Positions 18,641 through 24,601 of a stretch of DNA of 32,613 bases are shown in pieces. Position 1 is the stretch's first letter, and each line of letters opens with the position of its first letter. Both the position numbers and the translations under genes were made by a program. This DNA is from Candidatus Methylacidiphilales bacterium (GTDB lineage Bacteria; Verrucomicrobiota; Verrucomicrobiia; Methylacidiphilales; JANWVL01), in NCBI GenBank assembly GCA_025056655.1, contig JANWVL010000171.1, positions 1-32,613 of the forward strand, written 5' to 3'. The notes under the pieces were generated by a model. The model worked only from the letters and a program-made list of their open reading frames with translations, ran no database searches and had not been told where the DNA came from.

Positions 18641-20140
18641 TCAAGAGTGCAGCTTCTGAAGATAGTTATTCGCAACCTCCTGGAGCCGACGACGCCGCGC
18701 CTGAGGCATGCGGTCATATGTTTTCAAAAGCATCGAGAGACGAGGATTGCCTTGAAAAAAAGCTCGTTGTTTATCTACAAACCGCCAGAAAAGCGCATCC
18801 CAAGGCTCAGTCCATGCAGGATCGCGTCGATAAGAACTCATTTTGAGAATGTAGTTGCTGGACGAAATGTAAGGTTTCGTCGTGATCAGACCGCCGTCAG
18901 CGAATTGGCTCATGCCATAAACATTAGGCACCATCACCCAGTCATACGCATCAATAAATAACTCCATAAACCAGCGGTAAACTGCATCAGGATGGATTTC
19001 ACATAGCAACATAAAATTGCCCAACACCATGAGACGCTCGATGTGGTGCGCATAAGCAAGCCGCAAGACTTTCCGTATCGCATCATCTACGGGAAGTATG
19101 CCTGTAGTCGCAGAATAAAAGGCTTTCGGAAGAGGGCGCGTAAAGTTCCAGAAATTCGTGGTGCGCATCCTTCGACCATAGAGATGATAAACGGCACGCA
19201 TAAATTCTCGCCATCCGATAATCTGACGTATGAAACCTTCGAGAGAATTAAGTGGCACAGGTTGTTTTCGGTGCCGTTCCAAAGTCGCTTGAATGACTTC
19301 ACGCGGGGTGAGAAGGCCGACGTTCAAATAGGGCGTCAATACGGAATGAAAGAGGAAATCATGCCCAGGCTCGATGGCATCTTCATACGGGCCAAAGTCG
19401 TGGAGACGTTTTTCGAGAAAGGCTTCGAGTTGTCGCCGCGCACCTGAGTGGGTGACGGCGAAGCAGAATTCATCAGGATTGCCAGGGGATTGTGGAAAAT
19501 GTTTTTCAAGGTAAGGAATACACTCTTTTACCCAGCGCGACGGCCCAGGGGGATCGTATGGAGGAACAGGGTAAAGATGAGGCAGCTTTAAGCGGTTGGA
19601 TGTGTCGTAGGTCCAAGAGCCGCCGGTAGGCTTATTGTTGGCTTCAAGGAGAATGTGGAGACGTTTTCTCTGCGCGATATAGTAGTCGGTTTGAAAAGGC
19701 TTTTTGTTTAGCGGAAGCAGGGCTTCGTTTTGCTCGTGGCTAGTAAGAAGGGCTGGATTGGGGAGGAAACGAATTGCAATGGCATGCGCGAGACAAGTTT
19801 TTACAAGGCGCTGTTTGAGCCAGTCGTCATCTGGCTCGATCGTCAAAATTTGTCCAACGCCTTGCTTAGAAAGATATGGGATAAGCGCACGGACGTCACT
19901 CCGTTCATCGTGTGAACAAATCCTGTAGATTGGGATTGAGCAAGACGCTTCCCATTTGGCTTTAAAAGCTGAAAGAGAGGCCAAATGAAAAAGCAGCTTA
20001 TGTTTGTGGAAAGGGTATTGTCGGAAAAAGAGGATTTCTTCAACGAGGTATGCTTTCGTTGGACAGGCCTCTTGTTGGGCTTGAATACAAGGATGCGGCC
20101 AGAAAAGTTGATGGGGAAAAATCAAAAATGCCTGGATCAT
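18641..20140 (-). CDS. Photolyase/cryptochrome-related protein of the FeS-BCP (COG3046) group lacking the Fe-S cysteines
   Basis: The 499-residue protein has an N-terminal Rossmann-like domain (residues about 1-150, with FPHQLF and HKHKLLFHLASL) and the C-terminal FAD-binding helical domain: IIGWREFMRAVYHLYG, LRLAYAHHIERLMVLGNFMLL, and DAYDWVMVPNVYGMSQFADGG. This is the bacterial FeS-BCP group, which includes (6-4) photolyases and CryB-like proteins. In those proteins four Cys hold a [4Fe-4S] cluster: one before the AYAHHI region and three in a segment shortly after KPYxxSxxYIxxMS. Here the first position is in TTGILPVDDAI and the second segment reads MSSYRRDPAWTEPWDALFW, both without Cys and the latter shortened. 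The cluster appears to be lost. FAD-site residues look kept. Repair versus photoreceptor function cannot be decided. The next gene, 9 bases on, is a flavin reductase-like protein. Confidence 0.88.
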   Translation of the reverse strand: MIQAFLIFPHQLFWPHPCIQAQQEACPTKAYLVEEILFFRQYPFHKHKLLFHLASLSAFKAKWEASCSIPIYRICSHDERSDVRALIPYLSKQGVGQILTIEPDDDWLKQRLVKTCLAHAIAIRFLPNPALLTSHEQNEALLPLNKKPFQTDYYIAQRKRLHILLEANNKPTGGSWTYDTSNRLKLPHLYPVPPYDPPGPSRWVKECIPYLEKHFPQSPGNPDEFCFAVTHSGARRQLEAFLEKRLHDFGPYEDAIEPGHDFLFHSVLTPYLNVGLLTPREVIQATLERHRKQPVPLNSLEGFIRQIIGWREFMRAVYHLYGRRMRTTNFWNFTRPLPKAFYSATTGILPVDDAIRKVLRLAYAHHIERLMVLGNFMLLCEIHPDAVYRWFMELFIDAYDWVMVPNVYGMSQFADGGLITTKPYISSSNYILKMSSYRRDPAWTEPWDALFWRFVDKQRAFFQGNPRLSMLLKTYDRMPQARRRRLQEVANNYLQKLHS

Positions 20141-20442: not shown

Positions 20443-20561
20443 ATAACATCTCCAGTAACCCTCAAGATCGTGAGCAGGCGCATTAATTCCAAATTAACAA
20501 ATAAGGCTTTACGAAAGTTTTTATTTTTTTAAATGTAAAAAATCTTAATGTGCATAAGTCT

Positions 20562-23480
20562 ATGGCAAATCCATCAACTTCTTCAAGCGTCCTTCCCGAC
20601 TGGCAGATGACCCTAAATGGGATAGATCCTCTACAAGGTCGAAAATTCCAAGTAAAAAAACGTGACGGACGATGGGTGGATTTCGACGAAACCCGGATCT
20701 ACCTAGCGATAGAGGCTGCCTTTAGGGATGTGTATCAGATTCCGGAATCGACGCCTTTGGATCAAAAGAAGGTAAATGAAATAAGGGAAGTAGCTAACAA
20801 AGTTTCTGGTCAAGCTCTAAGTGCAGCAATAAGAGGCGAAGAACTGGATGTGGAAAAGATACAAGATTTAGTAGAAATGGAGTTGATGCGCCAAGGGCAC
20901 TTAAGCGTCGCCAAATCTTATATTCTATATAGAGAAGAACGTCGTCGTGCTAGAGCACTCAGGGGAGAGAAGGATCATACAGACTATCCTTCCGTTCAGA
21001 TAAACATCATAGAATATGATGGAACTACAAAACCGCTCGATATACAAAAAATCAAGCGCGAAATCATGCTGGCCTGCAGAGGATACGAAGGGATATGTTC
21101 ATGGCAAGAATTGCTAGATGAAACGATTAAAAATCTTTATGATGGGGTAAAGGAATACGAGCTCGAACAAGCGATGATCTACGCAGCTCGCTCCCGTATA
21201 GAAAGAGACCCTGCTTACTCATATGTAGCCGCTAGGTTACTTTTAAATAAATTATACAGAGAAACTCTAGGCTGTGATATTAGTGAACCCAATTTTGAAA
21301 ATACTTATAGGCAGAAATTCCCCGCATACATAAAATTTGCTGTCCAAAAAAATCGTTTAGATGAACGCCTTCTAACAACTTATGACCTAAATAAGTTATC
21401 AGAATCGCTCGCTATAAAGCGCGATGAAAAATTTGCATACATGGGGCTGCAAACAGTATATGATCGATACCTTATCCATCACGAAGATCATCGCTTAGAA
21501 ACTCCGCAATACTTCTGGATGCGTGTAGCGATGGGCTTGGCCCTGCTAGAAGACGATCCAACCAGACGTGCTATAGAATTCTATGATGTCCTATCAAACT
21601 TTTATTTCATCTCCTCCACTCCAACATTATTTAACTCTGGAACAAGGCATCCACAACTTTCCTCCTGTTATATTTCCACAGTCAATGATGATCTAGAACA
21701 TATTTTCAAAGTAATTTCCGACGACGCCAAATTATCTAAGTGGGCGGGCGGTTTAGGAAACGATTGGACAAATGTTAGAGCTACTGGATCTAGAATCCAA
21801 GGCACTAACGGGGTGTCCCAAGGAGTAATTCCATTCCTTAAAGTCGCTAACGATACGGCCGTGGCTGTAAACCAAGGCGGCAAAAGGAAAGGAGCAATGT
21901 GTGCTTATCTTGAGACTTGGCATTACGATATTGAAGATTTTCTCGAACTAAGAAAAAATACTGGGGACGACCGCAGACGCACTCACGACATGAACACCGC
22001 CAACTGGATACCAGATTTGTTCATGCGGCGCGTCAGACAAGGTGGGGTATGGACCCTCTTTAGTCCAAACGAAACCCCTGATTTACACGACCTGTATGGC
22101 AAAGCTTTTGAGGAAAGATATCTATACTATGAATCACTAGCTTCTCAAGGTAAAATTAAAATCTACAAACAGGTTCAAGCAGAGGATTTATGGAGAAAAA
22201 TGTTAACTATGCTTTTTGAAACAGGGCACCCATGGTTAACATTTAAAGATCCATCAAACCTCCGCTCCCCACAATCCCATGTTGGCGTTATACATTCTTC
22301 AAATTTATGCACAGAAATTTTATTGAACACTAGCACGGAAGAGGTCGCTGTATGTAACCTAGGCTCTGTAAATCTCGTAGCACATATTAAAAATGGAAAC
22401 CTAGATCGGGAATTACTTGCGCAGACAATTAAAACAGCTATGCGCATGTTAGATAATGTGATAGATATTAATTTCTATCCGATCCCCGAGGCAAAAAATG
22501 CAAATCTTCGTCATCGTCCTGTTGGGTTAGGTCTAATGGGCTTTCAAGACAGTCTATATGCGCTCAGAATCCCTTATGCAAGCCAAGAAGCAGTCGAGTT
22601 TGCGGATCGGACCATGGAATTTATATCTTATCATGCTATATTAAGTTCTGCTTTGTTGGCGAAGGAACGTGGTCCATACTCATCATTCAAAGGATCAAAA
22701 TGGGATCAAGGGATTTTGCCATTAGATTCGATTGAAATTTTAAGGCAACATCGCCTGCCCGATGAGCTCGACGTAAATACAGATTCTCATATGGACTGGA
22801 CGCCTGTCCGTGAGACAATAAAAAAATACGGGATGAGAAATTCTAATTGTCTCGCTATAGCTCCTACTGCTACCATTTCGAATATCATTGGTGTTTCCCA
22901 GTCAATTGAGCCAACCTTTAAAAACCTTTATGTCAAGTCGAATTTGTCTGGTGAGTTTACAATTATCAACACCTATTTAGTAGAAGATTTAAAAAGTAGA
23001 AATCTATGGGACGATCAAATGCTCGATGACTTAAAGTATTACGACGGTGAACTAGCTGAAATAGAGCGCATTCCTTATGATATCAAGCATCTTTATCAGA
23101 CTGCATACGATATCGAACCCTATTGGTTAATTGAAGCAGCATCTAGAAGGCAAAAATGGATTGATATGGGACAGTCCTTAAATTTGTATATAGCACAGCC
23201 CAGCGGAAAGAAACTTTCGGAAATGTATCAGCTTGCATGGATCAAAGGGCTTAAAACAACATATTACCTAAGATCAAAATCTGCAACTAGCATCGAAAAA
23301 TCTACGCAAGACATTAACCGTCGTGGGTTACAGCCCCGATGGATGAAGAATCAGTCTGCCTCGTCTAGAATTAGAGTTCAACGTGATTCGCCAGAACAAA
23401 AATTAAATCATAATAGTTATCAAACAGTAACTCCACAAGCATGCAGTATAATGGACACAGGTTGTGAAAGTTGTCAATAA
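20562..23480 (+). CDS. nrdA: Class I ribonucleoside-diphosphate reductase, large subunit
   Basis: The 972-residue protein reduces ribonucleotides to deoxyribonucleotides with the NrdB partner that follows. It opens with an ATP-cone (about 30-125, [20 protein letters not shown]) and a second cone-like repeat (about 147-240, [17 protein letters not shown]). The catalytic cysteines are C369 (SSCYIS), C583 (NLCTEI) and C598 (AVCNLGS), matching E. coli C225, C439 and C462, and a Tyr-Tyr pair in TTYYLRSKS matches Y730/Y731. The C-terminus ends CESCQ, with C968 and C971 as the shuttle pair. The C583-C598 spacing is shorter than in E. coli and like chlamydial NrdA. A GTG at 20550 could be the start instead; neither has a Shine-Dalgarno. 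Two NrdR-like boxes precede it. Base composition is much more AT-rich than the genes to the left. Confidence 0.96.
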
Positions 23481-23539
23481 AATATGCAAGTTTATTTTTT
23501 CAACCTAACATATAAACAACCTAAACCCAATTAAATACT

Positions 23540-24601
23540 ATGTCTTGCTGTGTCGCATACAATACACCTCCCAAGCCGTATGATTTAACCAAACGCATCA
23601 ATGTCGAAGACAAGCGTCTAATAAACTGCCATACCGTTGATGTAAACCAATTAATGCCTATTAAATATAAGTGGGCATGGGAGCATTATTTAAACGGTTG
23701 TGCTAATCACTGGATGCCGAATGAGGTATCGATGCAACGTGATATAGAACTTTGGAAATCAAACCGTCTCAATCCTGATGAAAGGCTTGTTATCATGCGC
23801 AATCTTGGCTTCTTTTCGACAGCAGAATCCTTAGTTGGGAATAATATAGTTCTAGCTATATTTAAGCACATTACAAACCCTGAATGTCGTCAATATCTCC
23901 TTCGCCAAGCTTTCGAGGAGGCCATACACACTCATACTTTTCATTATATAGTAGAATCCTTAAATCTTGATGAACGTGAGGTATTCAACATGTATCACGA
24001 AATAGATTCAATACACGGCAAGGATGTTTTTACCATGCGCCTTACAGAAGATATCGTCCAAGACAATTTTAAAACAGATACTCTAGAAAATATACAAAAA
24101 TTTGTCAAGAATCTGGTTGGTTTTTATGTTATTATGGAGGGTATCTTTTTCTATTCTGGTTTTGTTATGCTTCTTTCATTCAGAAGGCAAAACAGAATGG
24201 TAGGTATTGGAGAGCAATTCCAATATATCATGAGAGATGAATCTATACACCTTAATTTTGGTATTGATTTGATTAATGGTATCAAGGAGGAGAATCCTGA
24301 GTTCTGGACTCCTGAATTCCAAAAAGAGATTCAAGAACTTATAGAAAATGCCGTAGAATTAGAGATCTTGTATGCACAGGATACATTACCGCGAGGTATT
24401 CTAGGGCTTAATGCTAACCTATTTAGAGAGTATGTTCAACATATAGCTGATCGTAGATTAGAGCGCATTGGACTGAGAGCTAAATACGGTTCTAGGAATC
24501 CGTTTCCTTGGATGTCAGAAACAATAGATCTCCCAAAAGAGTCCAACTTTTTTGAAAAGAAGGTCACAGAGTATCAAAAAGGCGCAGTTCTTGAGTGGTA
24601 A
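23540..24601 (+). CDS. nrdB: Class Ic ribonucleotide reductase small subunit (Phe in place of the radical Tyr)
   Basis: The 353-residue protein is a ferritin-like radical subunit. The six metal ligands are visible: E96 (STAESLVG), E127 and H130 (EEAIHTHTF), E200 ([10 protein letters not shown]), and E234 and H237 ([10 protein letters not shown]). The position that carries the radical Tyr in ordinary NrdB (E. coli Y122) is F134 here, and the first ligand is Glu not Asp. Both traits define the class Ic (R2c) type known from Chlamydia trachomatis, whose cofactor is a Mn(IV)/Fe(III) pair and which uses no tyrosyl radical. All six ligands and F134 are shifted by exactly seven from my recollection of the chlamydial numbers, consistent with a close relative. 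It follows nrdA after 59 bases and runs straight into nadD. Metal content cannot be proven from sequence. Confidence 0.96.

Follow-up and report, generated by a model that had tools for sequence, protein, structure and literature searches.

A cluster-free prokaryotic (6-4) photolyase-type gene in an uncultured Verrucomicrobiota-like bacterium and the conserved segment at its former cluster site

How is a photolyase-related protein stabilised, and what does it do, when the Cys residues that would hold its [4Fe-4S] cluster are missing? This question is raised by one gene in the 32,613-nucleotide stretch of DNA analysed here (the window; features in Table 1). The encoded protein matches the PF04244 (DPRP) family profile with 142.8 bits (cut-off 22.1) and aligns with PhrB of Agrobacterium (4DJA) and CryB of Rhodobacter (3ZXS) at E values of about 1e-78. 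Its nearest solved relatives are prokaryotic (6-4) photolyases, namely PhrB, CryB and those of Synechococcus, Vibrio and Caulobacter; no solved structure of any cluster-free member was found in the PDB set searched. The GC content of the gene equals that of the window (both 0.48), a composition without sign of recent import. A phage origin was considered and rejected (0 matches among 50,697 phage records). The gene product is most likely a prokaryotic (6-4) photolyase belonging to subgroup M, the cluster-free one (PMC9178010), with the repair mechanism and the replaced cluster proposed below.

Table 1 Features of the photolyase-type gene and its neighbour, in window coordinates.
Feature	Coordinates	Strand	Evidence
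Cluster-free prokaryotic (6-4) photolyase-type gene	18641..20140	minus	Intact ORF (ATG at 20140, stop at 18641, 499 aa, 0 internal stops), PF04244, AlphaFold2 model
N-terminal antenna-binding domain (PF04244), residues 6-226	19463..20125	minus	Profile match
Pro350 codon, site of PhrB ligand Cys350	19091..19093	minus	Alignment
His366 codon, catalytic His of (6-4) repair in PhrB	19043..19045	minus	Kept 81/81
Tyr424 codon, lesion-binding Tyr in PhrB	18869..18871	minus	Kept 81/81
Shortened loop YRRDPAWTEPWDALFW, residues 437-452, in place of CxxC...C ligand loop	18785..18832	minus	Alignment
Flavin-reductase-like protein, PF01613, 203 aa	18020..18631	minus	34.7 bits, cut-off 27

Up to the shortened loop, the numbering of the window protein is almost collinear with that of PhrB, so equivalent residues can be read off directly. 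In the alignment, the PhrB ligand Cys350 corresponds to Pro350, Cys438 and Cys441 are deleted, and Cys454 corresponds to Glu445. The earlier note had claimed, from the letters alone, that all four cluster Cys are missing and that the second loop is shortened, and this alignment, which places no Cys at the four ligand sites, confirms both points. The protein thus lacks the four Cys for [4Fe-4S] by which the FeS-BCP subtype is recognised and shows the absence of all four that marks subgroup M. At position 350, Pro is found in 80 of 81 cluster-free relatives and Cys in all 26 four-Cys relatives. Both ligand regions of the window protein contain 0 Cys; the sole nearby one, in FMLLCEIHPD, is Cys380, which sits at a non-ligand position, as had been noticed before, and varies hardly at all within the cluster-free clade. 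A hidden cluster held by Cys380 or another Cys was rejected, as neither ligand region offers a second candidate ligand.

Could the ligands have been lost through an assembly or frameshift error, or through decay in this one genome? This is extremely unlikely: the reading frame is intact, and the shortened loop recurs in the best 80 of at least 579 relatives, in an orthologue from another family of the host's order (L003) and in 40 further loci. The orthologue has 46% identity and a loop of the type KMSDEKKGDWQKIWDGLFW, with Ile at position 350 and the Trp residues kept; a frameshift hiding the Cys is thereby ruled out, and the protein stands as the natural cluster-free member it had been taken for. 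The relatives come from a scan of 84,980 species genomes, in which at least 579 were confirmed. The best 80 of these, in named genomes, all lack the ligand Cys (80/80) and belong mostly to Bacteroidota, with some from Ignavibacteria, Planctomycetota and Balneola; as they were chosen by similarity to the window protein, they show that the type is common and do not give its fraction of the family. In two of the 80, a Cys follows the Pro of position 350 by two residues, which is off the ligand position, and some carry a single Cys within the shortened loop. The 40 further loci, which come from the host's class and phylum, are of the cluster-free type as well, and lower-scoring relatives have all four Cys. 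The cluster-free branch is common in Bacteroidota and in the host's own phylum. Most of the host-phylum cluster-free proteins (L117-L156) have one loop Cys (W-C-x-x-W-D), never a set of four; it is perhaps a remnant of a ligand, and the window protein has Thr where they mostly have this Cys.

Such proteins are already in the literature. In 2015, 7% of 464 FeS-BCP sequences were reported to be without the cluster Cys and Tyr460 (PMC4619345); in 2022, the name subgroup M was given to 20 of 110 sequences, each lacking the four Cys, as no other subgroup does (PMC9178010); and in 2025 several orthologues were again noted to miss the cluster Cys (PMC12082625). The expectation of an unusual member was consequently not borne out: the window protein is an ordinary, new member of a large branch that has been described, not a new kind of protein. 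Added here are the host lineage, the P350/W443/W447/D448 signature, the never-both pattern and the flavin-reductase neighbour, each described below.

To place the protein, a tree was built from an alignment of 82 cluster-free with 27 four-Cys sequences, after deletion of the ligand columns; PromaPL and the other published members of subgroup M lie outside this tree. Even with the trait columns removed, the two types are split on one branch with an SH-aLRT value of 100, a result repeated with another sample, and one loss or replacement event suffices for the cluster-free clade. The root was not inferred, so the direction of the change rests on the literature. Within the tree, the window protein groups, with weak support, with Bacteroidota and apart from 40 cluster-free sequences of its own phylum, and an AU test did not reject the alternative placement with the host-phylum clade (p = 0.49). 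Horizontal acquisition from Bacteroidota would fit this placement. The host itself points to Verrucomicrobiota: the 16S gene of its genome contains an exact match to the EUB338-III probe site.

The residues on which repair depends are kept. Asp179, Asp254, His366, Leu370, Trp390, Met410, Tyr424 and Tyr430 are present in the window protein and in 81 of 81 cluster-free relatives, a set that includes the His366, Tyr424 and Tyr430 characteristic of the PhrB family. Repair by PhrB is lost in the H366N and Y424F mutants and falls to 30% in Y430F (PMC4619345). Two further positions differ from PhrB. Trp342 is Tyr in the window protein, in 46 of 81 cluster-free and in 18 of 26 four-Cys relatives; as Tyr342 is present in both types, the change does not go with cluster loss. 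In 77 of 81 cluster-free proteins Tyr460 is replaced by Phe, in agreement with the 2015 paper (PMC4619345); PhrB with Y460F repairs normally. The window protein is, as judged from its residues, most likely a working FAD-dependent (6-4) photolyase. FAD would be bound in the helical domain and photoreduced via Trp390 and neighbouring aromatics, with Tyr342 replacing Trp342. His366 and Tyr424 would line the pocket into which a (6-4) lesion is flipped, repair would proceed by light-driven electron transfer from FADH-, and Asp179 and Asp254 would form the Mg2+ site, as in PhrB. What we show are the sequence features, the single cluster-free clade, the kept residues and the predicted fold; we infer the repair activity, the type of lesion, the way in which the flavin is photoreduced, and a part in packing for the Trp residues discussed below.

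Conservation of these residues bears on two other readings of the protein. Picocyanobacterial Phr2 is cluster-free, and CPD activity has been suggested for it on the argument of the missing cluster (PMC9426592); by extension, the cluster-free members could have switched lesion and be CPD photolyases. This is unlikely: His366 and Tyr424, on which (6-4) repair by PhrB depends, are kept in 81 of 81 sequences, a class I photolyase is already encoded in the host genome (L116 923-2269, class from sequence motifs), and the cluster-free PromaPL is cited as a prokaryotic 6-4 photolyase in PMC9178010; repair by PromaPL is cited here second-hand, from PMC9178010 and PMC9426592. A class I photolyase gene was also named by eye near up to 47 of the cluster-free genes in L032-L157, and its occurrence both in the host genome and beside many cluster-free genes suggests that CPD repair is left to another enzyme. 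It is very unlikely that the window protein works chiefly as a blue-light receptor (cryptochrome), signalling via a conformational change instead of repairing DNA: CryB does have both roles (PMC9178010), but the window protein keeps all repair-required residues and no regulatory gene adjoins its gene. What a relaxed repair constraint would look like can be seen in L157 (G264:C41:179581-181059), a divergent cluster-free relative from the host's class with His366 changed to Gln and Tyr430 to Thr; by its residues, it may have lost repair and could have a signalling role.

The preferred assignment as a (6-4) photolyase is also consistent with how the two enzyme types are distributed. By score, the cluster-free type occurs in 34 of 384 genomes of the host's class and the other type in 103; each positive genome has exactly one PhrB-type gene and 0 have both, where about 9 would be expected if the types were independent (kinship uncorrected). 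Never finding both in one genome fits interchangeable enzymes, and the simplest reading is that one repair job is done by either type. Other genes named by eye near the cluster-free genes (L032-L157) encode short-chain dehydrogenase-like proteins (25), a TIGR03643-like small protein (22) and a DUF2256-like small CxxC protein (9 loci). In the window, the photolyase gene is adjoined by nrdA and nrdB (ribonucleotide reductase, 20550-24601), with GC contents of 0.41 and 0.37, much lower than the 0.48 of the remaining window.

What, then, has taken the place of the cluster? In a 76-sequence alignment (A2, with L003 outside it), no variation is seen at T346, G347, P350, W443, W447, D448, L450 and W452, and almost none at C380; W447 aligns with PhrB Phe456. 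On this alignment, P350, W443, W447 and D448 appear as the clade's own conserved core. The AlphaFold2 model has a mean pLDDT of 93.1, and the former cluster region (residues 431-450) is modelled at 95-98 as a short turn leading into a helix (441-457); the lowest values fall in residues 401-430, the FAD-side loop, modelled without FAD. In Foldseek, the model has the PhrB-like fold (TM 0.92 to 4DJA), and its best matches are all prokaryotic (6-4) photolyases at about 0.9, with other classes at about 0.6. Cys-to-Ser mutants of PhrB are insoluble (PMC4619345), so loss of the cluster would have needed compensation, the physical basis of which we infer. The [4Fe-4S] cluster is proposed to have been replaced once, at the base of the cluster-free clade, by a short loop and helix with the invariant Trp443, Trp447 and Asp448 and with Pro350 at the old ligand site, which would let the roof subdomain fold without a metal; the Trp pair presumably fills the cluster site. 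The earlier note had suggested a different stability solution or a changed function. The former probably holds, in view of the signature and the high-confidence model, and the former cluster region is probably stabilised in another way; the latter is not supported, as the repair residues are kept. According to PMC12082625, what the cluster does in FeS-BCPs is still unknown. A branch that retains the repair residues and has a Trp-rich segment instead speaks for a structural and against a catalytic role of the cluster, a point that earlier papers had already made, and the size of this branch in nature supplies many test proteins.

Finally, the PF01613 reading frame starts 9 bp downstream of the photolyase stop codon on the same strand, and the two genes probably form a two-gene operon. 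Of 124 cluster-free genes, 26 have a PF01613-type gene at a distance of up to 1.5 kb, versus 0 of 26 four-Cys genes, the latter drawn from the host phylum only (Fisher p 0.008, ignoring kinship, for a pattern noticed before testing). Such genes number 21 in the 80 named loci, and 18 of them are at most 200 bp from the photolyase gene (binomial p about 4e-18 against uniform placement, kinship likewise ignored and the pattern again noticed beforehand). These neighbours fall into two sequence families, and no report of a photolyase and a flavin reductase in one operon was found in the literature searched. We give little credence to a further idea, that a dedicated PF01613 partner from the same operon maintains or loads the reduced flavin and in this way takes over a redox or stability function that the cluster has in the four-Cys branch.

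In comparison with known systems, the window protein shares with PhrB of Agrobacterium about 32% identity over the model match, collinear numbering, the catalytic residues and the fold (TM 0.92). PhrB, however, has Cys350, Cys438, Cys441 and Cys454 with a [4Fe-4S] cluster, Trp342 and Tyr460, where the window protein has Pro350, the shortened loop, Tyr342 and Phe451. CryB of Rhodobacter likewise shares the family and the fold (TM about 0.92) and has all four cluster Cys, whereas the window protein has none. The closest likeness is to subgroup M, which spans multiple lineages and includes PromaPL of Prochlorococcus: its members are, like the window protein, PhrB-type and without the four cluster Cys. 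The window protein differs from them in coming from an uncultured Verrucomicrobiota-like host, and its gene may pair with a flavin-reductase-like gene.
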